DNA of 64,000 nucleotides from Antarctobacter heliothermus. GTDB lineage: Bacteria > Pseudomonadota > Alphaproteobacteria > Rhodobacterales > Rhodobacteraceae. Within the stretch, counting starts at the first letter, position 1. Every line of letters starts with the position of its first letter. This document shows positions 48,681-64,000 of this stretch, one piece after another. The stretch covers positions 62,001 to 126,000 of the forward strand of contig NZ_FZON01000003.1 of the NCBI RefSeq assembly GCF_900188425.1, written 5' to 3'. Both the position numbers and the translations under genes were made by a program. Under the pieces are notes generated by a model. It had not been told where the DNA came from and did no database searches. It saw only the letters and a list, made by a program, of their open reading frames with translations.

Positions 48681-49606
48681 CCATAGGAATAGCAGTGAAT
48701 TCATCAGGCGCCGCCCGTGCGGCGCTTGCCGGGCTCGAAGCAGTCGAAGCCGTCGGACGGGGCGCCATCGGCGGCTTCGTTAGCCTCTCGGCGATCCTGC
48801 CGGACGGCAGCCTGCACGATCTGGGCGTTCAGCGAGGCGGGGCACAGGCGATGCTGGCGGACCCATCCTTCGCGGCGCTGGCGGAGGCGCGGCTGGCGGT
48901 CCTCATGTCCTCCGGTCCCGACCGGCCGGAGCCGCTGTCGCAGTTCACCCCCTGCGCGGCCAACGCGGGGCTGATGACCGGACACCGCCTGCCCAACATG
49001 CCAGGTCCGGACGGCCAGCCGCCGAACCTCGTCGCCCTGCAGGCCCTGCGCGAAGGGCGGACACCACAGGACGCCATCTCCCTTGCGCTTGATGCCGCGC
49101 CCGACCTCGATGCCGGGCTGATCGCCATATCGACGGCGGGTGAGGTGGCGCTTGGCAATTCCGCCTCCGTTGCCGCGCGGGACGATATCGGGCAGGCGCT
49201 GGTGGTCGAACCGGACCTGTCGGTCGCGGTGCTGCACAACTCCATCCTCCCGCATGAGGCGCTGGCCGATCTTGCCGTCTCGGCCATCCGCGACAGGCTG
49301 GCCCCGCGCGACGGCTGGTCCGGGTCGGGCAGTGCCATCGGCCTGTCGGTCCATGCCGGTCCTGAGACCCGCGCCCTGATCATCGACCCCGACAGTGGTG
49401 CGCCCCTGCGCTTTGTCGCGGCGGGGAAAGAATGGCTGCGCCTGGAATGGGAAGGCTGCCCGGTGCGCCGGGGCGATCCGGTTATCGCCGGGGGACGCAC
49501 CGTCGGGCGTGTCATTCACGAGGCCTACTGCATCCTGCGTGACGGAACCGTGACGAGCACACGCGGCGGCGACCTGATCACATGGACGGCGGGGGCCGGA
49601 ACATGA
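48677..49606 (+). CDS. Conserved protein of unknown function, DUF6963-like
   Basis: A 309-residue cytosolic protein beginning MTIGIAVNSSGAARAALAGL, with GRGAIGGFVSL, SSGPDRPEPLSQFTP and GLMTGHRLPNMPG. From memory this resembles the family DUF6963, which often sits beside amidohydrolases; this was not checked by a search. The first part looks like an Ntn-hydrolase-type strand layout, but I could not assign a nucleophile. It is tightly coupled by four-base overlaps to the transporter ATPase and to the D-aminoacylase gene, so a role in processing the imported compound is likely. Confidence 0.65.
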   Translation: MTIGIAVNSSGAARAALAGLEAVEAVGRGAIGGFVSLSAILPDGSLHDLGVQRGGAQAMLADPSFAALAEARLAVLMSSGPDRPEPLSQFTPCAANAGLMTGHRLPNMPGPDGQPPNLVALQALREGRTPQDAISLALDAAPDLDAGLIAISTAGEVALGNSASVAARDDIGQALVVEPDLSVAVLHNSILPHEALADLAVSAIRDRLAPRDGWSGSGSAIGLSVHAGPETRALIIDPDSGAPLRFVAAGKEWLRLEWEGCPVRRGDPVIAGGRTVGRVIHEAYCILRDGTVTSTRGGDLITWTAGAGT

Positions 49607-51060
49607 GCGATTACGAATGCGATCTTCTGATCCGCGGCGCAGAGGTTTTTGACGGGTCCGGCGGCGCCCCCTTTGCGGCGGATGTCGCCGTGGCGGGCGA
49701 CCGGATCGTGGCCGTCGGCCCGGGCCTGACCCTCAAGGCGCGCGAGGTGATCGCGGCGGAGGGGCTGGCCCTCGCCCCCGGTTTCATCGACGTGCACACC
49801 CATGACGACATGGCCGTCATGGCCTATGACACCAGCCTGCCGAAGCTCAGCCAAGGGGTGACCACGGTCGTCACGGGCAATTGCGGTATCAGCCTCGGCC
49901 CGACGCCCCTTGGCCGCCGGGACACGCCCGTGCCACCGTTGGACCTGATCGCCACGGCAGAGGAATACCGCTACGCGACCTTCGGCGATTTCCTGACTGC
50001 GCTACGCGACTGCGGCCCGGCGGTGAACGTCGTGCCGCTGGTCGGGCATACGGTGCTAAGGGCGCGGGCGGTCGACGACCTGACCGGCCCAGCCAGCGCG
50101 GAGGAGACGGAGGCCATGCGCCGCGACGTCATCGCCGCACTGGAGCAGGGGGCCGCCGGCCTCTCGACGGGTCTCGCCTATCCGCCCGCCAAGGGCGCCA
50201 CAACGGACGAGGTGCTGGCGCTGGTGCGCGAGGTCGCCTCATTCGACGCGATCTGGACGACGCATATGCGGGACGAACGCACCGGCGTTGTCTCGGCGGT
50301 GGCGGAAACCATCGATATCGCCCGGCGCAGCGGCGCGCGCACGCTGATTTCGCATCACAAATGCTGTGGCGAGGCCGCCTTCGGCCTGTCGCGCACCACG
50401 CTGGCGATGATCGAGGAGGCGCGGCGCGAGATCCGGCTGGATATCGACGTCTATCCCTATACCGCCAGCTCCACCGTTCTAATCGAAAGCTTCGCCAAGG
50501 ACAGCCGCAAGGTCACGGTCAGCTGGTCCGATCCCCATCCCGAAATGGCCGGACGCGACCTTGACGAGATCACGGCTGACTGGGGCATCGCGCCGATGGA
50601 GGCGCTGGCGCGCCTCCGTCCAGGCGGGGCGATCTATCACCAGATGGACGATGGCGATCTGGAACGGATCCTCGCCTGGCCTCCGTCGCTTGTCGGATCC
50701 GACGGTCTGCCGCGCGACCGTCGCCCGCATCCGCGCCTCTGGGGCGCTTTTCCCCGCGTGCTGGGCCATTACGCCCGGGACCAGGCGCTGCTGACCATGT
50801 CGGCGGCCATCGCCAAGATGACTGGACAGACGGCTGACGTCCTGAACCTGCCCGATCGCGGTCGGATCGCCGCAGGCGCCGCCGCCGACCTCGTGCTGTT
50901 CGACACTTCTCGCATCCGCGACGCTGCAAGCTTCGATGAGCCGACGCTGCCCGCAGACGGTATTCGGGCGGTCCTTGTCAACGGCACGCTGGCCTACGAG
51001 CCTGACATATCGGGTGCTACGCAGGCAGGCCGGATATTGTCGCCGACCGGAGCGCCTTGA
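49603..51060 (+). CDS. N-acyl-D-amino-acid deacylase (amidohydrolase family)
   Basis: A 485-residue zinc amidohydrolase. Family motifs: PGFIDVHTHDDM (first metal pair), GNCG with the metal-bridging Cys, THMRDE, ISHHKCCG (His ligand), SDGLPRD (catalytic Asp) and the C-terminal GAAADLVLFD of the small beta domain. It would hydrolyse N-acyl-D-amino acids or D-residue peptides delivered by the transporter. ATG 49603 overlaps the previous stop as ATGA. It is the last gene of the operon. Confidence 0.92.
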   Translation: MSDYECDLLIRGAEVFDGSGGAPFAADVAVAGDRIVAVGPGLTLKAREVIAAEGLALAPGFIDVHTHDDMAVMAYDTSLPKLSQGVTTVVTGNCGISLGPTPLGRRDTPVPPLDLIATAEEYRYATFGDFLTALRDCGPAVNVVPLVGHTVLRARAVDDLTGPASAEETEAMRRDVIAALEQGAAGLSTGLAYPPAKGATTDEVLALVREVASFDAIWTTHMRDERTGVVSAVAETIDIARRSGARTLISHHKCCGEAAFGLSRTTLAMIEEARREIRLDIDVYPYTASSTVLIESFAKDSRKVTVSWSDPHPEMAGRDLDEITADWGIAPMEALARLRPGGAIYHQMDDGDLERILAWPPSLVGSDGLPRDRRPHPRLWGAFPRVLGHYARDQALLTMSAAIAKMTGQTADVLNLPDRGRIAAGAAADLVLFDTSRIRDAASFDEPTLPADGIRAVLVNGTLAYEPDISGATQAGRILSPTGAP

Positions 51061-51084
51061 GGCAGGCGTCGCCTGCACCTCTGA

Positions 51085-51318
51085 CCGTGGGGTGACCTCG
51101 ACAAGCATTGCGAGAAACGCCGCTTCCTCACCGATGATTACCGTCATGCAGCTCAGTCAGCACTTCGCGCACTGGCACGGCTGGAGCCCGAACTGGCGCC
51201 GGGGTTGATCGACAGCGCCATGCGGAACCTGCGTGACGCGCTTGAAGCGTCGCACCGGGTCGCGGATCTACTTGCCGCCGAGCAAGAGATCGCCCGGAGC
51301 CGCGGTCACCACAGCTGA
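51085..51318 (+). pseudogene. Start-less open frame, probable gene remnant
   Basis: After an in-frame TGA at 51082-51084, a frame of 77 codons runs to TGA 51316-51318 and encodes a helical, charged, plausible protein C-terminus (DLDKHCEKRRFLTDDYRH, LDSAMR-like and LEASHRVADLLAAEQEIARS segments). No ATG, GTG or TTG with a ribosome site precedes it in frame. It looks like the 3' part of a small gene cut off at the end of the peptide operon. I do not recognise the family. Confidence 0.45.
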
Positions 51319-51426
51319 CACCGAGATCGGCGGGACTGGATCCCCCGTAGTCAGGGCGCACTGGCCCGGAAACTACCCTTTCTGCTGCAACAGCCGGTGC
51401 GCCCGATCCCCCAAAGGAAACCAAAC

Positions 51427-51945
51427 ATGACAAATTTTCTGAGCGAGGTCTTCTTCCTCGACCTCGAGGCAAGTTCGCTCGCCCCAAACGGCTGGCCGAT
51501 TGAGATCGGGCTGACATGGATCGATGAGCTGGATGAACTGGTCACCTGGTCGAGCCTGATCCGCCCGCACCCGAGCTGGAGCACTACCGCTTGGTGTGCC
51601 GAAGCCGAAGCGATTCATCGGCTGACACAGGCCTACCTTGGGATCGCACGGCCAGCGGAGGAAGTCGCAGCTGAAGCCAACGCTATGATCGCAGACCGTC
51701 TGATGATCTCTGACGGCCGCAAAGCGGACGCGCGCTGGCTGGATCAGCTGTTGGCAACAGCCGAACATGCACGAGGCTTGCCGATCCTCGACTTCGACGC
51801 GACGGCTATGCGGCGCTTCGAAGGTGACGCTCTCGACGCCCTCTACACCTCGCCAACCCGCCGCAGGGCACCGCATCGGGCGGGCCCGGACAGTCGCCGA
51901 TTGGCCCGTGCATGGATGCGCACTCGCAGCCGAGTGGGGGGGTGA
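51427..51945 (+). CDS. DEDD-type 3'-5' exonuclease-like protein
   Basis: A 172-residue protein. The DxE of exonuclease motif I is visible in FFLDLEASSL (Asp12, Glu14). Later segments fit motif II (SDGRKADARWLDQLL) and the HxxxxD of motif III (HRAGPDSRRLAR). It resembles stand-alone ribonuclease T/DnaQ-like proteins of Rhodobacterales. The start at 51427 follows AAAGGAAACC. The C-terminal end is short and rich in Arg, possibly truncated. Confidence 0.7.
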   Translation: MTNFLSEVFFLDLEASSLAPNGWPIEIGLTWIDELDELVTWSSLIRPHPSWSTTAWCAEAEAIHRLTQAYLGIARPAEEVAAEANAMIADRLMISDGRKADARWLDQLLATAEHARGLPILDFDATAMRRFEGDALDALYTSPTRRRAPHRAGPDSRRLARAWMRTRSRVGG

Positions 51946-52057
51946 ACCCCCTTGAGAGGGTCCGACGTTCGCGCCGCCTCCGACCGCACCTCCTGCTCGG
52001 TCGGAAAAGGTCCGGCCAGCGACCACCGGCAAAGGTGGATAGGACAAGGATAATAGC

Positions 52058-52222
52058 ATGCCCAAATCTGACACTTCCCCGCGCACGAATTCCGCGCCCA
52101 CGACCACGATCACTTACCCACTGGCGATGACCAGTCTGATCGGCCTGCTTGCAAATGTTTGGGACCGGTTCGGACGGGCACATCGAGAACGCTCCAGACC
52201 AGCTGATCTGCTAAGGCATTGA
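52058..52222 (+). CDS. Small hypothetical protein (54 residues)
   Basis: ATG 52058 to TGA 52222, with AAGGATAATAGC ahead of the start. The product has a Ser/Thr/Pro-rich N-terminus and a single hydrophobic stretch (PLAMTSLIGLLANVW) followed by a basic tail (DRFGRAHRERSRPADLL). It could be a small membrane-associated protein of the DUF1127 type, but similarity is too weak to assert. Confidence 0.4.
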   Translation: MPKSDTSPRTNSAPTTTITYPLAMTSLIGLLANVWDRFGRAHRERSRPADLLRH

Positions 52223-52290
52223 AATTAAGGTGCGCCGGGGCATATCGTGCTCCGGCGATCTCTCTTAGGCGAAAAGTACAAATAACAGTT

Positions 52291-52356
52291 GAGCAAGGGG
52301 CGCTGCCCCCGTCTCCCTTTGGTCGACTCCCCCGGGATATTTGTGGCCAGAAGAAG
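52291..52356 (-). terminator. Intergenic GC hairpin and roseobacter-type motif
   Basis: GGGGC-GCT-GCCCC (52297-52309) lies next to CTCCCCCGGGATATTTGTGG at 52327-52346. From memory this pairing of a G/C hairpin and a CCCGGGATATTTNTGGCCAGA block is common after genes in Rhodobacteraceae. It lies 13 bases past the stop of the methyltransferase gene and likely terminates it. Confidence 0.55.
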
Positions 52357-52368
52357 CCGGGGCGCAGG

Positions 52369-53325
52369 TTATGCCGGACCGCGGCGCGCGGCCAGGACCG
52401 CCGGAGCGATCAGGGCGAGGTGTTTGTCCCAGCTGCCGCAGCAGCCGCCCCAGATGTCGGCGAGTGGAAATCGGCGGGCGAGCGTGCCCATCTGGCGGCC
52501 GAGATCTTTGGGGTCGCCCTCTTCGAGGTGGTTCAGCTTGCACAGGGCGATCTTGTCCATGGCCGCCGCGTTGGGGCGAAAGCTGCGCAGGCGGCGCTGC
52601 CAGTCGCCTGTCTCTAGCGCCGGTTCGAATTCCAGCGGGTGTGAGCAGTTGACGCCATAGCTGTCCGGTCGGGCCTCGGGACCGCAGGCGGCGTCCGTGG
52701 CGGTGACGGCTTCGGCTAGGCTGGGCCCGGCACGCAACCGGTGGTCCGAGGTCAGGGTGAAGGAGATGTTCACCGGGATGCCCGCGCGCGTGGCAGCGCG
52801 CGCGATCCCTTCGGCCTCTGGTACGTTGTTGATGGTGGCGGCCCAGATCAGGTCGACGCCATCATCGGCGTAGGTGCCGATTTGTTGCGCGTGGTAGTCT
52901 TCGGATTCTTGCGCCGTGATGGTCCGGTTGAGCGCGTAGGCATCGCCACGCGGTCCTAGGATACCGGCAATGCGGATCTCGGGGATTTGTCCCACATAGG
53001 GCGCACTGACCTCACGCAGAAAGGCGATGTTGCGCAGTTGGATCTCTTGCAGGGCAGCGCCCTCATAGCCCACCAAAGTCCCCCAATCGGCGCTGGCGCG
53101 ATAGTCCAGCCCGCCAAGCAGCGCGCATCCGCCTGCCTTGGCGATCTCGTCCAGCAAACGGCGGTACATATCCGTTGTCACCTGCAGGGCGTTTGGGTTG
53201 TCCAGCAGGGTGAAGGCGCAAAAGTGGTCAAACTCGAACCCATGGCGGAACATCAGCTCCGTCTCTGTGCCGCCTTCGGTGAACCAGGGCAGGCCGTCGG
53301 GGTGGGGGGCGAAGACCGGGGGCAT
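52369..53325 (-). CDS. Homocysteine S-methyltransferase-family protein
   Basis: A 318-residue TIM-barrel protein. The GGTETEL segment (18-24) and the zinc ligands Cys227 (GVNCSHP) with Cys295-Cys296 (GGCCGSW) match homocysteine/betaine methyltransferases. It could methylate homocysteine or another thiol from S-methylmethionine, betaine or a related donor. A divergent TetR gene suggests ligand-controlled expression. Confidence 0.88.
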   Translation of the reverse strand: MPPVFAPHPDGLPWFTEGGTETELMFRHGFEFDHFCAFTLLDNPNALQVTTDMYRRLLDEIAKAGGCALLGGLDYRASADWGTLVGYEGAALQEIQLRNIAFLREVSAPYVGQIPEIRIAGILGPRGDAYALNRTITAQESEDYHAQQIGTYADDGVDLIWAATINNVPEAEGIARAATRAGIPVNISFTLTSDHRLRAGPSLAEAVTATDAACGPEARPDSYGVNCSHPLEFEPALETGDWQRRLRSFRPNAAAMDKIALCKLNHLEEGDPKDLGRQMGTLARRFPLADIWGGCCGSWDKHLALIAPAVLAARRGPA

Positions 53326-53384
53326 GGTGCGGCTCCTTTTGCGTCAGTGTGGCGGACGGATGGCGCGCGCGCCAGTGGACTCGT

Positions 53385-53412
53385 GGTACACTTGACCTTG
53401 GGTACAGTGACC
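53385..53412. promoter_or_regulatory. Direct repeat between the methyltransferase and tetR genes
   Basis: GGTACACTTGACC (53385-53397) and GGTACAGTGACC (53401-53412), 16 bases apart. The first copy includes a TTGACC that could be a -35 element for the tetR gene. A candidate operator for the TetR regulator over both divergent genes. Confidence 0.45.
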
Positions 53413-53454
53413 CGGGCGTTGCCTTGCGGTATGTTGATCGCAAAAGGAGGGGCC

Positions 53455-54084
53455 ATGACCTTCATCAAGCCACGCAGCACGGCGACGACGCGCGATCGGC
53501 TGCTGACCGCGGCCGAGATGGCCATTCTGGACAAGGGATTTGCTGCCACCTCGATCGAGGAGCTGATCGTTGAGGTTGGCATCACAAAGGGCGGTTTCTT
53601 TTATCATTTCAAGGACAAGAGCGCGCTGATCGAGGCGATATTGGAGCGCCATCTGGTTGCCGAAGAGGTCTGGCTGGATGACCTGTTCGCCAGCGCGGCG
53701 AAAGAGACCGAGGAGCCGCTGGCACAGTTTCTGGTCTTTCTCCGACTGTTGCAGGAGCAGATGGCGGCGCTGCCGGATGTCCATCCCGGTTGCCTGATCG
53801 CCGCCACCTGTTTTCAGGAGCGCCTGTTCACGCAGACGGTGCACGATCTGGCGCAGCAGAACCTGTTGAACTGGCGGAGCCGGTTTCACGCCCGGCTGAC
53901 CGCAATCGCAAAGGTCGATCCGCCCCGATACCAGATCGATCTGGAGGCGATGGCGGACATGTTGGTGGTTCTGGTGGACGGGGCGATCATCCTGTCCAAG
54001 ACCGTGCGTGAGAAAGAGGTGCTGCCCCGGCAGATCGCCTTGTACGCGTGCTTTGTCGCCGGGGTGTTCGGGGATGTCGGGTAA
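53455..54084 (+). CDS. TetR-family transcriptional regulator
   Basis: A 209-residue regulator with the N-terminal HTH (ATSIEELIVEVGITKGGFFYHF, residues about 26-47; quoted in part: IEELIVEVGITKGGFFYHF) and a helical ligand domain. AAGGAGGGG precedes ATG 53455. Divergent from the homocysteine methyltransferase-like gene, which is the likely target. Confidence 0.88.
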   Translation: MTFIKPRSTATTRDRLLTAAEMAILDKGFAATSIEELIVEVGITKGGFFYHFKDKSALIEAILERHLVAEEVWLDDLFASAAKETEEPLAQFLVFLRLLQEQMAALPDVHPGCLIAATCFQERLFTQTVHDLAQQNLLNWRSRFHARLTAIAKVDPPRYQIDLEAMADMLVVLVDGAIILSKTVREKEVLPRQIALYACFVAGVFGDVG

Positions 54085-54198
54085 CTGTTGCGCAAAGCGC
54101 CGTTTTCTCCCCGATCCTGCGGGAATTGTTCATAACTTCTTGGCTCTGCAGCGCTAAACGCTTAGATGTAGCGCAAGAGAACAAGCGTCAGGTGTCCA

Positions 54199-55374
54199 AT
54201 GGACCAGCCCGACCCCGAGGCCGAGCCACAATTCACGCAACCGTTCCGTCAGGTGATCCTCATGCTGGCGGTGCTTGGCCTGTCGGGGTTCGGCGGCTTT
54301 CTGGCGTTGCCGCGCGTTTTGCCGGTGTTTCAGTCCAACCCCTACCTGAACGGCTTTATCCTGTTCGTCTTTGTTGTCGGGGTGCTCGCCTGTTTCTGGC
54401 AGGTCGCGCAGCTGATGGTTTCGGTCCGCTGGATAGAACGGTTCACCGCACGCGGCGATCAGGGGGTGCGCGCCGTGCCGCCGCGCCTGCTGGCACCGTT
54501 GGCGGCGCTTTTGCGACGCCGCCGGGACAAGCGGATGCAGATAACCACCACCTCGACCCGGTCGATCCTTGATTCTGTGGCCCAGCGCATTGACGAGGCG
54601 CGTGAGATCACGCGCTACATCGTTTCTCTGCTGATCTTCCTCGGCCTTCTGGGCACCTTTTACGGCCTTGCCACCGTGGTGCCCGCGCTGGTCGAAACGA
54701 TCCAGAGCCTTGCACCGCAAGAGGGCGAGACCGGCACCGATTCCTTTGCCCGCCTGATGTCGGGGCTGGAGGGGCAGTTGGGCGGCATGGGCGTGGCCTT
54801 TGCCAGTTCGCTGCTGGGGCTGGCCTGTTCGCTGATCGTCGGCTTGCTGGAACTGTTCGCGGGCCACGGCCAGAACCGCTTTTACCGTGAGCTTGAGGAA
54901 TGGCTGTCCTCAATCACGCGGCTGGGCTTTTCCTCTGACAGTGAGGGGCCGGATCTGGGGGCTGCGGGTCTTGTTCTGGACCAGATGGCCGAGCAGATGG
55001 AGCGCCTGCAGTACCTCTTTGTCGAATCCGAACAGGGCCGGTCAGAGGTGGACGCCCGGTTGGCGCAACTGGCCGACAGCGTCGAACGCATGACCGAACG
55101 GATTGAGGCGACAGCGCCCTCGGCCAATTCACTGGCGCGCATCGCCGAAGGGCAAGAACTGCTGGCGCAGGCGATTCGCGAAAAGGAAACGGATGAGGGG
55201 CTGGATGCCGAAAGCCGGATGCGGCTGCGGTCGATCGACGTGCAGATGTTGCGCATCCTTGAGGAAATCAGCGCCGGCCGGCAGGAAAGCATGGCCGAAC
55301 TGCGGACCGATCTGGCGACCCTGTCGCGGTCTCTTGGTGTGACGCGCAGCGTTCGGCCGCGCGGGGACGGGTGA
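54199..55374 (+). CDS. MotA/TolQ/ExbB-like proton-channel protein
   Basis: A 391-residue membrane protein. Four membrane segments at about 18-40, 52-76, 140-165 and 196-221, with the family motif GLLGTFYGL at 149-157 and the matching GMGVAFASSLLGLACS in the last helix. A cytoplasmic loop (about 80-138) and a long C-terminal part (about 250-391) with coiled-coil character follow. It pairs with the MotB-like gene three bases downstream. By analogy with MotA/ZorA it should use the proton gradient to move its partner. Its role in the cell is unknown. Confidence 0.85.
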   Translation: MDQPDPEAEPQFTQPFRQVILMLAVLGLSGFGGFLALPRVLPVFQSNPYLNGFILFVFVVGVLACFWQVAQLMVSVRWIERFTARGDQGVRAVPPRLLAPLAALLRRRRDKRMQITTTSTRSILDSVAQRIDEAREITRYIVSLLIFLGLLGTFYGLATVVPALVETIQSLAPQEGETGTDSFARLMSGLEGQLGGMGVAFASSLLGLACSLIVGLLELFAGHGQNRFYRELEEWLSSITRLGFSSDSEGPDLGAAGLVLDQMAEQMERLQYLFVESEQGRSEVDARLAQLADSVERMTERIEATAPSANSLARIAEGQELLAQAIREKETDEGLDAESRMRLRSIDVQMLRILEEISAGRQESMAELRTDLATLSRSLGVTRSVRPRGDG

Positions 55375-55377
55375 TCC

Positions 55378-58300
55378 ATGGCGCTGTCGCGACGCACCGG
55401 CGCGCGCTTTCAGGCCTCTATCTGGCCGGGCTTTGTCGATGCCATGACCGGGCTGTTGCTGGTGCTGACCTTTGTGCTGTCGATCTTCATGGTCATGCAG
55501 TTTGTGCTGAACGAGACGATCACCGGGCAGGAATCCGAACTGGACACGCTGAACTCGGAAATCAGTGCCCTGGCGCGGGCGCTGGGCGTCGAAAAGACCA
55601 AATCAACGCGGCTGGAAAATGAAGTTGGCCAGCTGAGTTCGACCCTGTCGGACCGTGACTTGCGGCTGGCTGAGCAGGAGAGCATCATCAACAGCCTGAC
55701 CGCCACACGCGACCGGCAGGCGGATCAACTGACGGCCGCCGCGGCACAGATTGCGTCGTTCGAGGATCGGGTGGCCGCGCTGCTGTTGGAACGTGATACA
55801 GCGCAGGCCGAGGTCCGCGATGTGACCGCTGCGCGGGATGCGCTGGTCGAGGAACGGACGGCGCTGTTGGCGGTGCGCGACGACCTGACCGAAGAACGCG
55901 ATGCGTTGACTGCCGCCTTGACCAGCGCCCGCGATGAGATCGACGATCAGGCCGAGGCGGCAAAACTGGCCGCCGCCCGGCGAGAGGCGTTGGAGGCGTT
56001 GATCACCGATCTGCGCGCGCGCAACGCTGATCGAGACGCGCGGATTGGTGCGTTGACCGCCGAACTGACAGAGCTTGAGGCCGACCTGACCGACGAAGAA
56101 GCCGCGCGCCTGGCCGAATCAGAGGCCGCGGTGGCGCTGCGCAAACGGTTGGAAGAGGCGGACGCCGACCTGACAGCGATGACCATGGCGTTGGAACAGG
56201 AACGCGCGAGGGCCGAGGAAACCCTGACCCTGCTGGCGGCGTCGCGTGAGGCAGAGACGGATCTGAACGCCCGTCTGGCCGCCGCGCTGTTGGCGGGACG
56301 TCAACAAGGCGATGACCTTCAGGCGCGCATCGACACGTTGGAGGCGCAATTGGCCGATGCCCGCCGCGCCCAGACGCGGCTGTTGGCGCAATTGGCCGAT
56401 CTCCAGGACGAAACGGCGCTGACGGCGCAGACGCTAAAGGCGCGTCTGGATGAGGCCACCACCCGGATTGTGCAGTTGGAGGCCGCGCTCAGCGATGCCG
56501 AACAGACCGAAAAGCAACTGACCGCCGATCTAGACCGCGCGCGCAGCACCGGGGCAGAGACGGCAGTGACCCTGCAAACCCAGGTGGACGCGGCGCTGGC
56601 CCGGATCACTCAGCTAGAGGCGTCCTTGTCCGAGGCGCGTCAGGCCGAAGCGCGGCTCAATCAGGAACTCGCCACGGTTCTGGCAGAGGACGAGGTTGAG
56701 GCGCGCGTGCTGCAGAACCGGATCGATGTGGCGCTGGCGCGGATTTCCGAACTGGAGGAAACGCTTGCCGATGCGCGCGCGCAAGGGGCGCAGACCGATA
56801 GTCGATTGGCGGCTTTGCGCGATGATCTGACGGCGTCACGCGCCACGCAACGCGATGCAGAGCGGGCGCTGGCCCGCGAAGAGGCCGCGCGCGCATTGGC
56901 AGAACGCGGTCTGAAAGACGCGCAGGCAGAGGCAGCGGCGCGCGCCTCCCGGTTGACCGATCTGTCTGCGCAACTGGCGCAGGCGCTTGCCCGTCTGGCT
57001 GAGGCCGATGCGCTGAAGACCGAACTGGAGGCGCTGCGCGCCCGCAATCTGGCGTTGGTGTCGGATCTATCAGCGGCCGAGGGCAAGGCTGAGGACCGCG
57101 CCGCCGCACTGACTGAACTGCGGTCCGAACGTGACCGGCTGGATGTTGCGCTGGCCCTTGCCCGCAATGAGATCGGCGAGGCGCAGGGCGCCGTGGCGTC
57201 CTTGGGCGATGAAGTCGATGCATTGACCGGGCAACTCGCGCAGGCCCGCACAAGGGAAACAGAGCGCGTCGATGTGATCGAGGCGATGCGCGGGCAGATT
57301 GCCCAAATCGAAGCGCGGTTGGACGCGGCGTTGAAACGGGTCGAGGATCGGGGCGATCGGATCGACCGGCTGCAAAACGAAAATGCCGACCTGTCCGCCC
57401 GACTGGCGCGTTTGGGCGGCGCGGCGGCCCAGCAGGAATCGGCGGTCACGGCACTGGGCGCAGCCAATGCGCGCCTCTCGGCCGAACTGGATGCGACCCG
57501 CGCTCGCGCGGTCGAACGCGATGCCCAGATGGCCCGCCTGCAACAGGAATTGGCGCAGGCCGAGGCGCGGGCCGAAGATCGCACCGCAGAGGCGGCAGAA
57601 CTGGAAACACTGCGCGGTGATCTGGCGCAGTTGCGCACCCGGTTGGAGGCCGCCCAGCGCAGGGCGGCGCAGGGCCTGTCGCGTATCATCACGCTGGACT
57701 CTGAAAATGCCGACCTGACGCGCAAGTTGGCCGTGGCGGATGGGCGCGGCGCGGAACGCGACGCAGAGATCGGCCTATTGAAAGGCCGGATCGACCGGAT
57801 TGCCGCCGAATTGCAGGCGCTGCGGGCCCGCGATGCCCAGCGAGACGGGTTGATTGCCGACCTGCGCCAACAGTTGGCCGAGGCCGAGGCGCGCGCTTTG
57901 GAACAGAGTGGCGACAACCGCTCGCTGGAGGAAAAACTGGCTGCAGCGCTGGCCGCCCGCTTGGCCGCCGAGGCATCGGTTGCGGAAACGCGGGACCGGT
58001 TGGCGTCAGCGCTTGCGGCGCAAGAGGCGGCAGATGCACAGCTGAACGCAAGACTGGACGCGGCGGAAGAGCGGCAAATTCTGCTCAACCAGGCGCGCGA
58101 AAAGCTGGGTCAAACCGAAGAACGCGCGACCCGGGCAGAGTTGCAGGTCGAGGCACTCAACCAGAACGTTGCGGAACTGCGCCGCCAATTGCGCGAATTG
58201 CAGGCGTTGCTGGACGATTCACAGGCAAAGGATGCCGCGTCAGAGGTGCGGCTGCAGAATCTCGGCTCTGAGTTGAACGCAGCCATCGCACGCGTGGCAT

Positions 58301-58872
58301 CCGAAGAACGGCGCCGCCGTCTGGCAGAAGAGGCCAGGCGCAAGGCCGAAGAAGAAAAACGCAAGCTGGAACAAGAGCGCGCGGAACGGCTGGAGGCGGA
58401 AAAGAAAGATCTCGAAGCGTACCGGTCAGAGTTCTTTGGCAAGCTGCGCGCGGTGATCGGCGACCGCGATGGCATCCGGATCGAAGGGGACCGTTTCGTG
58501 TTCTCGTCCGAAGTTCTGTTCGAGGTCGGATCGGCGGACCTGTCCGCTGCGGGGCGCGGAGAGATTGAGGAAGTCGCCGACATCCTGCTGGACATTGCGG
58601 ACGAGATTCCCAAAGGCATCGACTGGGTGATTCGTGTCGATGGCCACACCGACAACCGACAGATCAGGCCGGGCGGTGAGTTTGCCGACAATTGGGAGCT
58701 CAGCCAAGCACGCGCGCTTTCGGTGGTGCGCGACATGATCGACAACTACGGAATCCCGCCACAGCGGTTGGCGGCCAATGGGTTCGGCGAGTTCCAGCCC
58801 GTCGATCCGGCGGACACGCCAGAGGCGTGGGCCCGCAATCGGCGGATCGAATTGAAACTGACAGAACGGTAA
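55378..58872 (+). CDS. Giant MotB/ZorB-like protein: membrane anchor, very long coiled coil, OmpA domain
   Basis: A 1164-residue protein. A short N-terminus leads into one membrane helix (about 19-44) starting with VDAMTGLLLVL, where Asp21 is at the place of the proton-carrying Asp of MotB (YADFMT). Residues about 50 to 1015 are almost unbroken heptad-type coiled coil, rich in Ala, Arg, Glu and Leu. Residues about 1030-1164 form an OmpA domain (VFSSEVLFEVGSADLS, VDGHTDNRQI, LSQARALSVVRDM, NGFGEFQPV, NRRIELKL) for peptidoglycan binding. A single helix of this length would be about 140 nm, far longer than the periplasm is wide, so it must bend, fold back or run along the wall. Next to an M23 peptidase gene. 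Confidence 0.85.
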   Translation: MALSRRTGARFQASIWPGFVDAMTGLLLVLTFVLSIFMVMQFVLNETITGQESELDTLNSEISALARALGVEKTKSTRLENEVGQLSSTLSDRDLRLAEQESIINSLTATRDRQADQLTAAAAQIASFEDRVAALLLERDTAQAEVRDVTAARDALVEERTALLAVRDDLTEERDALTAALTSARDEIDDQAEAAKLAAARREALEALITDLRARNADRDARIGALTAELTELEADLTDEEAARLAESEAAVALRKRLEEADADLTAMTMALEQERARAEETLTLLAASREAETDLNARLAAALLAGRQQGDDLQARIDTLEAQLADARRAQTRLLAQLADLQDETALTAQTLKARLDEATTRIVQLEAALSDAEQTEKQLTADLDRARSTGAETAVTLQTQVDAALARITQLEASLSEARQAEARLNQELATVLAEDEVEARVLQNRIDVALARISELEETLADARAQGAQTDSRLAALRDDLTASRATQRDAERALAREEAARALAERGLKDAQAEAAARASRLTDLSAQLAQALARLAEADALKTELEALRARNLALVSDLSAAEGKAEDRAAALTELRSERDRLDVALALARNEIGEAQGAVASLGDEVDALTGQLAQARTRETERVDVIEAMRGQIAQIEARLDAALKRVEDRGDRIDRLQNENADLSARLARLGGAAAQQESAVTALGAANARLSAELDATRARAVERDAQMARLQQELAQAEARAEDRTAEAAELETLRGDLAQLRTRLEAAQRRAAQGLSRIITLDSENADLTRKLAVADGRGAERDAEIGLLKGRIDRIAAELQALRARDAQRDGLIADLRQQLAEAEARALEQSGDNRSLEEKLAAALAARLAAEASVAETRDRLASALAAQEAADAQLNARLDAAEERQILLNQAREKLGQTEERATRAELQVEALNQNVAELRRQLRELQALLDDSQAKDAASEVRLQNLGSELNAAIARVASEERRRRLAEEARRKAEEEKRKLEQERAERLEAEKKDLEAYRSEFFGKLRAVIGDRDGIRIEGDRFVFSSEVLFEVGSADLSAAGRGEIEEVADILLDIADEIPKGIDWVIRVDGHTDNRQIRPGGEFADNWELSQARALSVVRDMIDNYGIPPQRLAANGFGEFQPVDPADTPEAWARNRRIELKLTER

Positions 58873-58887
58873 GGCGGTCTCGCGCGG

Positions 58888-59862
58888 TCAGTCCGTAACG
58901 GTCACATGGGCAAAGCGGTGCGCAATGACCTTACCGGCGCGCGTGAGCCGTGCCCGGCCCAGATAGTCGCCCGAGGGCCAGCCCGCTGCCGGGGCCTTGC
59001 GACCAAAGGCGCGCATCTGGCTGACCTGATCGGTGTCCAACGTGATCTCTTTGCGAAACACCTCTGTTCCTGCCGGGCTGTGGGCCGACAGGGTTAACAC
59101 GTCACCCGGTTGGGGATACCCGGCATGGCCAAACAAAACGATGGGTTGATCGGGGGACAGAGTTGCGCGGCGGGCAGTCCCGTCCGCGACGGATTTCAGC
59201 GAGGGCACGTTGTCGGAAAATCCGGCGGTGACCAGCCCGGTCCGGGTGTAGGCGGGGGGATCCGTCCAGAGCGTTTGGACAGGGTCGCCGCAGGTGCCCG
59301 TGGCCTGAGGGCGGAAGGGATCGACAACCGCGCCGTCGCGCATCACGGTCATATGCACATGCGGGTGATTGGTCTGGCCTGACAGGCCCACAAGTCCCAA
59401 TGGATCGCCGGTCTGCACTAAATCGCCAGGTGCGACCGAGACAGAGTTCAGCCGCATATGGCAATACAACGTCTGCCAGCCGCCTTCGTGATCTATCAAC
59501 ACCGCGTTGCCACAGGCGTTTTGCGCGGTGACGCCGCGCATCAACCGATCATCCGGCATTTCGTCACGGATGCGTTTGACGACCCCGGCGGCGGCGGCCA
59601 GCACTGGAACGCCGATCTTGATGGCGTCAAAATCCAGCAAGGCGAAATCCGTACCTTTGTGTGCATCGCGCGAATTGATCCCGCAGGCGAAATCACGCTG
59701 CCGCCCTTGGGCGGGGTCGTTGTCGACGTAGTCTTCAATGAAACAGGTTTCACCCAGGGTGCAGTCAAGTGGCACGGCTAGGCGAAACGCCTCCGCCCCG
59801 GCGACCGGGGCGGAGGTGAGAAGGGCCAGCGCGGCCGCAAGCACGGCGCGCGACCGTGTCAT
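58888..59862 (-). CDS. M23-family peptidoglycan peptidase (LytM domain)
   Basis: A 324-residue exported zinc peptidase with a signal peptide (MTRSRAVLAAALALLTSAPVAGA). Metal ligands are His68 and Asp72 (HKGTDFA) and His170 in HVHM, with His135 (YCHM) and His168 as catalytic residues. An extra C-terminal beta domain (about 215-324) follows. It overlaps clpA by four bases and is convergent with the stator-like pair. The intact active site suggests real amidase or endopeptidase activity on the cell wall. Confidence 0.9.
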   Translation of the reverse strand: MTRSRAVLAAALALLTSAPVAGAEAFRLAVPLDCTLGETCFIEDYVDNDPAQGRQRDFACGINSRDAHKGTDFALLDFDAIKIGVPVLAAAAGVVKRIRDEMPDDRLMRGVTAQNACGNAVLIDHEGGWQTLYCHMRLNSVSVAPGDLVQTGDPLGLVGLSGQTNHPHVHMTVMRDGAVVDPFRPQATGTCGDPVQTLWTDPPAYTRTGLVTAGFSDNVPSLKSVADGTARRATLSPDQPIVLFGHAGYPQPGDVLTLSAHSPAGTEVFRKEITLDTDQVSQMRAFGRKAPAAGWPSGDYLGRARLTRAGKVIAHRFAHVTVTD

Positions 59863-62189
59863 TCCGCCGTCAGCAACGGCGGCTTTTTCGATCCCAGACG
59901 TGGCTTGTCCGGGCCGCTCAGGTCAAGGAACAACTCACCATCACGGACCGACACCTTGACGACGCCACCTTTTGCCAGTTGGCCAAAGAGCAATTCCTCG
60001 GCCAGAGGTTTCTTGATGTACTCTTGGATCACACGGCCCAGCGGGCGGGCGCCCATCTTGTCGTCATACCCCTTGTCAGCCAGCCATTCGGCGGCGGGTT
60101 TGGTCAGCTCGATGGTCACGTTGCGATCCATCAGTTGCGCCTCAAGCTGCAGGACGAACTTTTCGACCACTTGCAGGATCGTGTCCTTTGGCAGCGGACG
60201 AAAGCTGATGACGGCATCCAGACGGTTGCGGAACTCTGGCGTAAAGGTCCGTTCGATGGCGGCGGTATCCTCGCCCTCGCGGCGGTCGCGGCCAAAACCG
60301 ATCGCTGATTTAGCCTGTTCCACAGCGCCTGCGTTTGAGGTCATGATCAGGATCACGTTGCGGAAATCAACCGAACGACCATTGTGATCGGTCAACGTGC
60401 CGTGGTCCATCACCTGAAGCAGGATGTTGAACACATCCGGGTGCGCCTTTTCGATCTCGTCCAGCAGCAGCACGCAATGCGGGTGCTGATCGACGCCATC
60501 GGTCAACTGCCCACCCTGATCAAAACCGACATAGCCCGGAGGCGCACCAATCAGACGGCTGACGGCGTGTTTCTCCATGTATTCGGACATGTCAAACCGC
60601 AGCAGTTCCACACCCAACTGGTCGGCCAATTGCTTGGCGACCTCTGTCTTGCCGACGCCCGTGGGGCCTGCAAACAGATAGTTGCCAATGGGTTTTTCCG
60701 GTTCGCGCAGGCCCGCGCGGGCCAGCTTGATTGCCGAAGACAGTGCTGTGATGGCCGCGTCCTGCCCGAAAACCACCCGCTTGAGCGATTTTTCGAGATC
60801 CTTGAGCACCTCTGCGTCGTCCTTGGACACGTTTTTCGGGGGAATGCGGGCGATCTTGGCGACCACATCCTCAATCTCCTTGGTGCCGATGGATTTGCGC
60901 CGCTTGGAGGCGGCCACAAGATGCTGCGCCGCGCCCGCCTCATCGATGACGTCGATGGCCTTGTCCGGCAGTTTGCGGTCATTGATGTAGCGCGCCGACA
61001 GTTCCACGGCGGTCTTGATGGCGTCTGCGGTGTACTTGACGCTGTGGTGATCCTCGAAATAGGGCTTCAACCCCTTGAGGATCTTGACGGTATCCTCGAC
61101 CGAGGGCTCATTCACGTCGATCTTCTGGAATCGGCGGCTGAGCGCGCGGTCCTTTTCGAAATGCTGGCGGAACTCCTTGTAGGTGGTCGAGCCCATGGTG
61201 CGCAGTTTGCCGCCCTGCAACGCAGGCTTCAGCAGGTTCGACGCATCCATCGCGCCGCCAGAGGTGGCGCCCGCACCAATCACAGTGTGGATTTCGTCAA
61301 TGAAAAGCACGCCATCGGGATGTTCTTCAAGCTCCGTCACCACGGCCTTCAGCCGTTCCTCAAAGTCGCCGCGATAGCGCGTACCTGCCAGCAAGGCGCC
61401 CATGTCGAGCGAATAGATGGTCGCATTGGCCAGCACCTCGGGCACTTCGCCAGAGATGATCTTGCGAGCCAGACCTTCGGCGATGGCGGTTTTGCCGACG
61501 CCGGGGTCACCCACCAGCAGCGGGTTGTTCTTGCGGCGGCGGCACAGCACCTGGATACACCGCTCTACCTCGGAATCGCGGCCAATCAGCGGGTCAACGT
61601 CACCAGCCTGCGCCTTGGCGTTGAGATCCACACAGTATTTGCCCAGCGCCGATTCCTTGTCGGCCCCAGCGGCGGTAGATTCGGCCTGAACGGCCTCTTC
61701 CTCGGCGTCGGTGGCACCCTGAACCGGACGCGCCTCGCCGTAGGCGGGGTTCTTGGCAACGCCGTGCGCAATGAAATTCACCGCGTCGTAGCGCGTCATG
61801 TCCTGTTCTTGCAGGAAGTAGGCGGCGTTGGATTCGCGTTCGGCAAAAATGGCGACCAGCACGTTGGCACCGGTCACCTCTGTGCGGCCGGAGGACTGCA
61901 CATGGATCGCGGCGCGCTGGATCACGCGCTGGAACGCGGCTGTCGGCACCGCCTCTGATCCCTCGATGTCGGTGACGAGGTTGGACAGATCGTCGTCGAT
62001 AAATTCGACCAGCGTGGTGCGCAGCTCTTCGGTATCGACAGAACAGGCTTTCATCACGCGAGAGGCATCGGGCTCATCGATCAGAGCAAGAAGTAGGTGT
62101 TCGAGCGTGGCGAATTCGTGGCTGCGCGAGTTCGCGAGCGCCAGAGCCGAGTGAATTGCCTGCTCAAGGGTGTTCGAGAATGAAGGCAC
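59859..62189 (-). CDS. clpA: ATP-dependent Clp protease ATP-binding subunit ClpA
   Basis: A 776-residue AAA+ unfoldase with an N-terminal ClpN domain (residues 1-145), D1 ATPase with GDPGVGKT and DEIHTVIG, and D2 ATPase with GPTGVGKT and DEIEKAHPDVF, ending in a basic tail. It feeds proteins to ClpP, with ClpS as adaptor; neither clpP nor clpS is in the window. The start is a GTG (62189), encoding the family start PSFSNTLEQAIH. Confidence 0.96.
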   Translation of the reverse strand: MPSFSNTLEQAIHSALALANSRSHEFATLEHLLLALIDEPDASRVMKACSVDTEELRTTLVEFIDDDLSNLVTDIEGSEAVPTAAFQRVIQRAAIHVQSSGRTEVTGANVLVAIFAERESNAAYFLQEQDMTRYDAVNFIAHGVAKNPAYGEARPVQGATDAEEEAVQAESTAAGADKESALGKYCVDLNAKAQAGDVDPLIGRDSEVERCIQVLCRRRKNNPLLVGDPGVGKTAIAEGLARKIISGEVPEVLANATIYSLDMGALLAGTRYRGDFEERLKAVVTELEEHPDGVLFIDEIHTVIGAGATSGGAMDASNLLKPALQGGKLRTMGSTTYKEFRQHFEKDRALSRRFQKIDVNEPSVEDTVKILKGLKPYFEDHHSVKYTADAIKTAVELSARYINDRKLPDKAIDVIDEAGAAQHLVAASKRRKSIGTKEIEDVVAKIARIPPKNVSKDDAEVLKDLEKSLKRVVFGQDAAITALSSAIKLARAGLREPEKPIGNYLFAGPTGVGKTEVAKQLADQLGVELLRFDMSEYMEKHAVSRLIGAPPGYVGFDQGGQLTDGVDQHPHCVLLLDEIEKAHPDVFNILLQVMDHGTLTDHNGRSVDFRNVILIMTSNAGAVEQAKSAIGFGRDRREGEDTAAIERTFTPEFRNRLDAVISFRPLPKDTILQVVEKFVLQLEAQLMDRNVTIELTKPAAEWLADKGYDDKMGARPLGRVIQEYIKKPLAEELLFGQLAKGGVVKVSVRDGELFLDLSGPDKPRLGSKKPPLLTAE

Positions 62190-62342
62190 GGGCGTGCTCC
62201 TCTTGTCTGCGCGGATCCGTTGGTTCGGACCAGCATTGCCTCATAGTGTTAAAGTTTGGTCGATTGCGGCCAACCTTCAAGTTTTTTCTCAGGATTCCTG
62301 CATCACTTTTGGACATGGCATCGAAATCTGCCGCGAGCGTGA

Positions 62343-63104
62343 TCAGAAATTGTCCTTGCGTTTGCGCACCTCTGCAAAGACTTCGGCATCGGTTCCGCCG
62401 GGCAGTCCGACGGCTTTTTTGACGCTGTCCAGGGGGGCGCGGAGAAACGGGTTCGTGTCCAGTTCTATTGAAAGCGGAACCTGCGCAGTCGGCCGACCCT
62501 CGGCGCGGGCGGCGTCGATTTCACTTGCACGAGAGATAAGCGCTTCGTTGCCTGGTTCAATGGTCAGGGCGAAGCGGGCGTTGGCATGGGTGTATTCATG
62601 GCCCGAATAGACCATCGTGTCCGGCGGTAGGGCCATCAGCCGCGAAAGGCTGTCCCACATCATGCCCGGCGTGCCCTCAAATATCCGCCCACATCCCAGC
62701 GCCATCAGGCTGTCGGCGGTGAACACGGCCTTGGCCTGCGGGTAGTGGTAGGCGACATGGCCCAGTGTGTGACCCGGCACGGCGATCACCTCGCAGCGGC
62801 CGTCTCCGGTGCCGCCGGAAAACCCCGGGTCCAGCGCCATGTCCAGTTTCGGCAGCTTGGCCTCTTCGGCCTTGGGGCCCATGACCATGCAGCCGTATTT
62901 CTCGCGCAACTCGGCCACGCCTCCTACATGATCGTGGTGATGATGTGTCAGCATGATCACACCCAGCGTCCAGCCACGGGCCTCCAGCGCAGCGATGATC
63001 GGGCCGGCCTCTGGGGCGTCGATCAGCGCGGTGCCGTCGGGTCCGTGCACCAGATAGGCGTAATTGTCCGACAGGCAGGGCACGGTCACGATGTCGAGGG
63101 GCAT
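62343..63104 (-). CDS. gloB: Hydroxyacylglutathione hydrolase (glyoxalase II)
   Basis: A 253-residue metallo-beta-lactamase-fold enzyme that hydrolyses S-lactoylglutathione. Metal motifs: [10 protein letters not shown] (54-63), [14 protein letters not shown], and GHEYT. The C-terminal domain has NPFLRAP, the glutathione-binding signature. It is divergent from the methyltransferase gene, an arrangement common in Rhodobacterales. Confidence 0.95.
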
Positions 63105-63171
63105 GGTCTTTCCTTCGCGGCTTTGTCAGGATGGTTGGGGGCCAGAGTGGCGCATCGTTCGAGGGGGTTCA

Positions 63172-63912
63172 ATGCATCTGGACGTACAGGTGTTGCGGGA
63201 TTTCTATTATCGCAGTGCGCTTGGGCGCGCTGCGCAAAAAATCCTGCGCGCCCAGGTGTGCAAGTTCTGGCCCGAGGCCAAGGGCCAAACCGTGGTTGGC
63301 TATGGCTTTGCGGTCCCGCTCTTGCGGCCCTACCTCAAAAGCTCACGGCGGGTTCTCGCGCTGATGCCGTCGCCGCAGGGGGTCATGCCCTGGCCGGCGG
63401 GGATGGCCAACGTGTCTGTCCTGAGCGAAGAGACTCTGTGGCCGCTGGAAACCGGGCACGTCGACCGGCTGATCCTGATGCACGGGCTGGAGACGTCAGA
63501 GCGGCCATCTGACCTGCTGGACGAGGCGTATCGGGTGCTGGGTCCTGGCGGCAAGGCGTTGTTCATCCTGCCCAACCGTTCGGGCATCTGGGCGCGGGCC
63601 GATCATACGCCATTCGGTTACGGGAGGCCCTACTCTCTGGGGCAACTGGAAACCCAGCTCAAGCGGCATGACTTTGTGCCCGAGGCACATGTCTCGGTCC
63701 TGTATCAGCCGCCGTCCACACGGCGATTCTGGATGAAGACGGGGCCGATCTGGGAAAAGGTCGGGCGCGCGGTGCCGGTCACGGCAGGCGGCGTGATGCT
63801 GGTCGAGGCGTCCAAACGGCATCCGCCCTCGCGGCGCAGGGTGGGGGAGGCGGCAAAGGTGTTGAACCCGCTGGAGGTGCTGGCCCCCACCGGCAAGGCC
63901 AAGCCAGTGTGA
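63172..63912 (+). CDS. Class I SAM-dependent methyltransferase
   Basis: A 246-residue methyltransferase. [14 protein letters not shown] is the SAM-binding first strand (lacking a full GxGxG), followed by [10 protein letters not shown] and [19 protein letters not shown] (motif III region). GAGGGGG precedes ATG 63172. The divergent gloB neighbour is conserved in relatives. The substrate is unknown. Confidence 0.82.
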
Positions 63913-64000
63913 TCGGGCCGCCGGATCGGCGCTCGTCGCCTGCGGCAACAGTACCCTGCCAACCGTCCTCACCGCGCCCGTCGATTGTGTGTCAGGGGGC
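63913..64000. other. Window end, unassigned
   Basis: No reliable gene can be called in the last 88 bases; they are GC-rich and may belong to the 3' end of a gene beginning outside the window. Confidence 0.3.

Follow-up and report, generated by a model that had tools for sequence, protein, structure and literature searches.

A 64,000-nucleotide stretch of the Antarctobacter heliothermus genome (5.17 Mb; contig NZ_FZON01000003.1, positions 62,001 to 126,000), hereafter the window, encodes on its forward strand two genes separated by a 3-base gap, which we call A and B. The A gene (54199–55374) specifies a 391-residue predicted channel protein of the MotA/TolQ/ExbB/ZorA type with four membrane helices and a C-terminal helical tail, and the B gene (55378–58872) a protein of 1164 residues belonging to PRK09039, a database family annotated as 'peptidoglycan -binding protein' (NF006542). 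An earlier reading of the letters alone (the original prediction) described a stator-like pair combining a MotA/TolQ-type channel with a MotB-type partner that keeps a conserved helix Asp, an OmpA domain at its far end, and about 950 residues of coiled coil in between; the open reading frames (ORFs) are as it gave them, and each of these features is borne out below.

A and B are adjacent in 80/80 loci of the named long-coil lineage (hereafter named loci) and in 59/60 loci from the rest of the Alphaproteobacteria (class loci; 60 regions were analyzed out of 78 class genomes with A). Because of this adjacency, and because the coil of B is under purifying selection, the pairing is not due to chance. 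The A protein is 93% identical to A of Mameliella alba.

The B Subunit

B scores 712 bits on the NCBIfam model NF006542 (cut-off 388; 712.6 bits in a whole-genome search) and also exceeds the cut-off of NF006543 (316.5 versus 305 bits). By these matches it is a long member of the catalogued PRK09039 family, which is named without a stated function. The family models (NF006542 and its sisters NF006543–NF006546) have 627 and 342–350 positions, and B exceeds the largest of them by 537 residues.

The membrane helix of B (residues 16–44; 55423–55509) starts with WPGFVDAMTG, in which Asp21 is the predicted proton site. A conserved acidic residue in this helix, a hallmark of 5:2 ion-driven motors, is thus present; the original prediction had named its absence from homologues as evidence against a stator, and the column is Asp in 135/135 B proteins (the window, 76 named, and 58 class). 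At the other end of the protein lies a predicted wall-binding domain of the OmpA/MotB type (residues 1047–1155; 58516–58842; motifs GHTD, NWELSxxRA, and NRRIE), which scores 58.5 bits on Pfam (cut-off 27.2) and is preceded by a helix (residues 962–1018; 58261–58431) delimited by conservation and by the structural model. The closest PDB entries to the B C-terminus are MotS, MotB, and PomB (best E 5.7e-28). Residues H1090, L1108, R1112, and R1155 are found in 59/59 rows (window and class) and correspond, by motif and without a formal alignment, to H186, L199, R203, and R254 of ZorB I, the mutation of which is reported to have disrupted peptidoglycan pull-down (PMC11890865). The wall-binding residues are therefore kept, and by analogy the OmpA domain of B would be expected to bind peptidoglycan.

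The A Subunit

The membrane core of A (residues 14–245; 54238–54933) contains GLLGTFYGL at residues 149–157. Across a 60-row alignment the GLLGTF motif, including T153, is invariant, as are M197, F201, S204, Y140, and R130; T153 and S204 lie at what we take to be the positions of the TolQ/ExbB pore threonines. The predicted structure (predicted local distance difference test, pLDDT, 81) consists of helices at residues 16–35, 37–44, 48–89, 96–107, 117–170, and 179–245; four helices carry hydrophobic membrane stretches, as judged by eye from hydrophobicity and the model. Two further predicted helices, at residues 255–330 and 337–383 (pLDDT about 51–79), form a C-terminal tail (residues 255–383; 54961–55347) that was absent from the first reading.

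Used as a Foldseek query, A returns chains of TolQ, ExbB, or ZorA entries as its first 49 matches (best E 4.8e-3), and VIA-align superposes it on TolQ with Z 12.4 (3.5 Å over 187 residues), on ZorA with Z 11.0 (3.8 Å over 191), and on MotA with Z 9.7 (3.8 Å over 185). The Pfam family MotA_ExbB (PF01618) is matched at E≤1 by 43/45 family members, with a best value of 6.3e-7. Based on the modeled fold, A clearly belongs to the TolQ/ExbB/ZorA/MotA superfamily, and fold scores do not settle its nearest branch.

The charges flanking the membrane helices suggest how the pair is oriented. A residues 74–139 contain 15 Lys/Arg and 7 Asp/Glu, and residues 164–195 contain 1 and 5; B residues 1–15 contain 3 Lys/Arg and no Asp/Glu, and residues 45–60 contain none and 4. 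According to the positive-inside rule, these loop charges place the A tail in the cytoplasm and the B coil in the periplasm, as predicted for the coil at the outset. The accompanying contrast with the Zorya defense system, in which the long tail belongs to ZorA and is cytoplasmic, holds in that the long coil here is carried by B and predicted to be periplasmic, but it was drawn too sharply, as a helical tail on the cytoplasmic side is predicted for A as well.

Near the channel, A residues 155, 193, 199, and 202 are Tyr (77/80), Gln (80/80), Val (74/80), and Ala (73/80) in the named long-coil lineage and Trp (56/58), Pro (57/58), Thr (52/58), and Ser (53/58) in the rest of the class. Small A proteins tend to occur with small B proteins: the eight A proteins shorter than 335 residues all pair with B proteins shorter than 400 (Spearman 0.43, n = 58, uncorrected for relatedness).

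A Long, Predicted Periplasmic Coil with Free Length and Fixed Register

Between its two ends, B contains 966 residues (45–1010; 55510–58407) with no proline and a hydrophobic period of 3.49 residues (power 6.02; 1000 shuffles evaluated on an identical frequency grid gave at most 2.07). Together with insertions and deletions (indels) in heptads, described below, the heptad period and lack of proline are features of a continuous coiled coil. With a coiled-coil rise of 0.1485 nm per residue, the contour is ~143 nm, several times the usual periplasm width of 20–35 nm, so the proposed reach beyond the periplasm stands: the coil exceeds any straight periplasmic span. Selection on the coil is purifying, with ratios of nonsynonymous to synonymous substitution rates (dN/dS) in six pairs of 0.058–0.150, compared to 0.013–0.098 for the OmpA domain. 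Within the coil, residues 634–759 resemble residues 742–867 (57277–57978); this 126-residue repeat with an offset of 108 scores 204 against a maximum of 100 in 30 heptad-preserving shuffles and is likely a duplication.

The length of the coil is not conserved. B proteins range from 546 to 1502 residues (median 692) in the family set of 116 complete proteins, which includes 13 identical repeats between collections, and from 302 to 911 (median 425) in 58 loci from the rest of the class; excluded from these lengths were four of the 80 named B proteins, which are interrupted at contig ends, and a truncated class B. The longest are from a Pseudoprimorskyibacter metagenome-assembled genome (1502 residues, L118) and genome G134 (1439 residues, L250). 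Within the Rhodobacteraceae-type family the rod thus shows an approximately threefold spread between species, while both ends are near-constant: the distance from an FFGKLR-type anchor to the end of B is 146 residues in 65/66 proteins and 145 in one (the pattern was not matched in 11/77). Close relatives can differ twofold, as in L250 and L251 (G167), whose B proteins have 1439 and 726 residues and whose A proteins are 83% identical. Coil length therefore does not represent a fixed distance to be bridged.

Because plain length modulo 7 over all members is muddied by repeated Leisingera lengths, we compared non-overlapping close pairs (at least 70% identity in B and at least 75% in A, each protein used once). 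The 38 pairs yielded 79 indels, 40 of which are multiples of 7 (expected 11.3, p 2.5e-14, a value that assumes 79 independent indels; pairs with numerous large gaps carry more uncertainty). Another 12 span 3 or 4 residues, corresponding to the classical stammers and stutters of coiled coils, and three span 11. In a control with 60 random deletions and 20% substitution, all 60 were recovered exactly and 11 were multiples of 7. Among pairs with a single gap, 5/9 gaps are multiples of 7 (p 0.0045). Unequal exchange between heptad repeats could contribute to this excess. The heptad register is kept while the length of the coil is free. This freedom in length speaks against a ruler or rigid strut and favors a leash or a flexible shaft running along the wall.

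Distribution

A is present in 193/198 family genomes, mostly with one match per genome, and in 78/115 of the Alphaproteobacteria sampled. B, scored by NF006543 at E≤1e-30, is found in 72/115, all of which also have A, and in 51/249 genomes of a phylum sample (47 of Alphaproteobacteria and 4 outside); at the same threshold it was found in 0/14 control genomes, including E. coli and Caulobacter vibrioides. Six class genomes have A and no B match; the A match is weak in four of them (E 2e-4 to 3e-10) but not in the other two (G006 and G074). In at least four genomes (G005, G024, G085, and G103) the B match lies on a different contig from A.

A Proposed Wall-Anchored Motor

From the observed sequence features, conservation, co-occurrence, and register-keeping changes in length, we infer, by analogy with studied stators, that A and B form a 5:2 assembly that uses protons, rotates, and binds the wall. 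With moderate confidence, we propose a proton-driven envelope motor, anchored to the wall by a length-tolerant tether and acting near poles or division sites. Five A subunits would encircle the pair of membrane helices contributed by dimeric B, and protons passing Asp21 of B and the polar ring of A (T153 and S204) would drive rotation of the A ring with respect to B. Dimeric B would emerge from the membrane as two parallel strands of coiled coil ending in OmpA domains and, because these domains would grip peptidoglycan, would be the wall-anchored element. The cytoplasmic tails of A would rotate with the ring and may contact a cytoplasmic partner. In the Rhodobacteraceae-type members, the coil would have been extended into a tether that far exceeds the width of the periplasm and runs along the wall, so that the motor could sit tens of nanometers from its anchor; the exact length of the tether would be immaterial provided the heptads stay in register. 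Such a motor would most likely serve envelope growth or division, alongside Tol-Pal rather than replacing it.

Published data that may bear on this role come from flagellum-less Komagataeibacter hansenii, in which one report describes neighboring 'motA' (348 residues, four transmembrane segments) and 'motB' (321 residues, one transmembrane segment, OmpA-like C-terminus) genes and identities of 46–48% over 95–99% between MotB and three other alphaproteobacterial proteins (PMC6570709). As these identities resemble those among the 17 short B proteins in our sample (39–62%, median 50% over 95%), the K. hansenii MotB probably fits the PRK09039-type B family. Overexpression of motA or motB is reported to give cells of up to 6.13 and 5.12 µm, respectively, compared to 3.15 µm, with chained cells and septum-like regions and a threefold faster spreading of colonies on soft agar; green fluorescent protein (GFP) fusions were polar, and bipolar in longer cells (PMC6570709). 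A part in growth or division, near poles or division sites, is thus weakly suggested by a single overexpression study of a probable short homologue.

Several observations weigh against this interpretation. Fused to the C-terminus of MotB, GFP would lie in the periplasm, where it is usually dark, so the MotB-GFP foci are suspect. The phenotypes come from overexpression only, the K. hansenii genes left the shape of E. coli unaffected (PMC6570709), and family membership was derived from published identities, not from the K. hansenii sequences. For A, none of the Foldseek matches reaches E 0.001 or better, an unrelated helical design equals the VIA-align Z of MotA (9.7), the full-length protein has no Pfam match at 0.01, and the trimmed core falls just short of the MotA_ExbB cut-off (20.4 versus 22.9 bits); a profile of the core finds no PDB chain at E≤1, including no solved MotA. 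The single-chain model of B is of low confidence (pLDDT 72, predicted template modeling score 0.33) and consists of seven long helices, with interruptions of the coil at about residues 236–253, 392, 567–570, 679–684, 788–791, and 948–961, which could be hinges or artifacts of modeling B as a monomer instead of a dimer. When only the net difference in length within each of the 38 pairs is considered, just 7/27 are multiples of 7 (p 0.08). No match to A was found in 37/115 class genomes, including G004 (4.3 Mb, 100% complete), so the pair is not essential everywhere. Our searches of the open-licence PubMed Central (PMC) literature turned up no work on deletion mutants, proton flux, or the structure of the family, and none treating A and B as one family.

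The pair is of interest as a predicted motor, driven by the proton-motive force and anchored to the wall, that is spread through much of a bacterial class and already has a database name. Because close species differ largely by whole heptads between fixed ends, the length of the coil is a natural variable that could be engineered, making it possible to ask whether it sets the distance of the anchor, affects the transmission of torque, or is a mere leash for the stator.

Alternative Functions and Relation to Known Systems

A credible though unlikely alternative is that the pair does not rotate and acts as a sensor or clamp of the distance between inner membrane and wall, gated by the proton-motive force, with the coil as a flexible leash. 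The free length of the coil between intact ends suits such a leash, and no rotor or cytoplasmic partner was recognized among the recurrent neighbors, only some of which are annotated; on the other hand, the channel motif and Asp21 are invariant, and studied relatives that keep both use ion flow.

A second possibility, which we regard as improbable, retains rotation and gives the coil an active part. Turning of the A ring against wall-held B would twist and shorten the leash, over up to about 195 nm, and the motor, with the cargo of its cytoplasmic tails, could pull itself along the inner face of the wall. The stroke would scale with coil length and would be changed by evolution in heptad steps. 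If true, this would be a bacterial traction machine of a kind not described among the stator relatives compared here.

Slightly less probable still is a surface-spreading or gliding motor resembling AglRQS. The faster spreading of K. hansenii on soft agar agrees with it, but those data come from elongated overexpressors only, the recurrent neighbors include no recognized gliding gene, and the presence of A in nearly all family genomes seems too general for such a function. GldLM/PorLM resembles the wall-anchored motor proposed here in that GldM, its Asp-bearing subunit, has a long periplasmic part; this part consists of folded domains reaching the outer membrane and, unlike B, has no OmpA end.

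That the pair is a diverged TolQR duplicate doing Tol-Pal work is, in our judgment, very improbable. TolQ and ExbB are the best structural matches of A, and the elongation of K. hansenii overexpressors is Tol-like. However, B has a coil and a MotB/PomB-type OmpA domain in place of the TolR/ExbD domain; no tolA, tolB, pal, or TolA/TonB-like third subunit was recognized beside the pair; and the host encodes tolQ (275 bits, cut-off 221), tolR (132.7, 127.3), tolB (416, 343.15), and pal (137.3, 125.35) elsewhere, on contig C106. The duplicate, which the original prediction had named as a finding that would count against it, was rejected on these operon and domain grounds, not from a tree. Domain II of TolA is likewise a periplasmic arm of variable length, of 110–335 residues according to one survey, which also mentions SiiAB, grouped here with GldLM/PorLM (PMC12204202). 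The arm of B differs from that of TolA in lying on the Asp-bearing subunit, in being a coiled coil, and in its length, which, taken as total B length less 198, is ~350–1300 residues in the family set.

Membership in a Zorya-like phage defense system is hardly credible: the fold of A resembles ZorA, its tail is predicted to be cytoplasmic, A has a weak match to ZorA models (1.7e-9), and the B OmpA domain shares wall-binding residues with ZorB and matches ZorB models (1.1e-22), but A reaches 15 bits on a ZorA model with a cut-off of 500, its tail is short whereas B carries the long, predicted periplasmic coil, no ZorC, ZorD, or ZorE was recognized among the neighbors examined (only some neighbor ORFs were scanned), and the pair behaves as a core gene, mostly single-copy in the family and in a recurrent suhB/efp-like context elsewhere in the class, rather than as part of a defense island.

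Flagellar MotAB/PomAB share with the proposed motor a four-helix A and a B with a membrane Asp and an OmpA domain. They differ in that MotB has a short plug and linker where B has its long coil, and in that the A core profile finds no solved MotA. The genome has a separate flagellar motA elsewhere (370 bits, cut-off 303.8), and no flagellar genes were recognized by eye at 48000–64000 of the window. According to a 2025 survey of stator relatives, an OmpA-type domain is missing from non-flagellar B subunits (PMC12505986); the PRK09039-type B would be a counter-example if its A counts among those relatives. The Rgs polar-growth proteins of Sinorhizobium were also considered and set aside, as those described in the text consulted, which does not cover RgsD, lack the architecture of B (PMC7327166). 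RSP_1880, a 'PG-binding domain-containing protein' mentioned in work on CenKR and DalA, is at most a possible B.

Neighboring Genes

Immediately downstream of B, in convergent orientation, is an M23 peptidase gene (58888–59862, reverse strand) that had been proposed as a partner of the pair. Downstream sequence of 5 kb or more is available for 69 named loci, of which 44 carry M23 and 56 a ClpA-type gene; all 44 M23 loci also have ClpA, 12 have ClpA alone, and 13 have neither. Neither gene was found in 59 loci elsewhere in the class (BLASTP 1e-10). M23 is thus a lineage neighbor kept by synteny and is judged to lie outside the A-B system. Other window neighbors that could be named are a ClpA-type AAA protein, a glyoxalase II-type protein, a homocysteine S-methyltransferase, and a TetR regulator. 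The last two are upstream of the pair at 52369–54084, and homologues of each are upstream in 1/80 named loci.

In the class loci, the region upstream of A contains suhB in 45/59 and a small OmpA-family protein in 42/59 (representatives named by Pfam), with an efp-like gene farther upstream in 39/59 (by eye). The 135-residue OmpA-family protein just upstream of A (e.g., L162, L203, and L204) was considered as a third subunit and rejected. It does not adjoin the pair in the window; in a search of 21 genomes the eight matches in the genus or family of the window were weak (best E 8e-6), that in the window genome being its pal; and in G004 (L263, C8:206247-217879) the efp-like, suhB-like, and OmpA-type genes persist in order with no A or B match, the OmpA-type gene thus outlasting the loss of A and B. 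A convergent ABC (ATP-binding cassette) transporter-type gene of ~600 codons follows B in 27/59 class loci (e.g., L163, L170, and L204); the long ones were named by eye and one 243-residue member by Pfam.

Elsewhere in the A. heliothermus genome, a 336-residue protein encoded beside tolR has no NCBIfam match and was assigned as TolA by eye and position. The genome also contains two further A-type genes (L002 and L004), both below every NCBIfam cut-off. At L004 (G000:C86:64559-67771), a 326-residue A-type gene that exceeds the Pfam MotA_ExbB cut-off and has no NCBIfam match is followed by genes for two different small proteins of 152 and 222 residues with no Pfam or NCBIfam match. Both small proteins appear by eye to have a hydrophobic helix with an Asp, as if they formed a B dimer of two unlike subunits.

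Finally, one locus from an assembly titled Nocardioides marinus (L139) contains a Leisingera-like pair with a B of 613 residues that is 85–86% identical to Leisingera B; this assembly is probably mislabeled.

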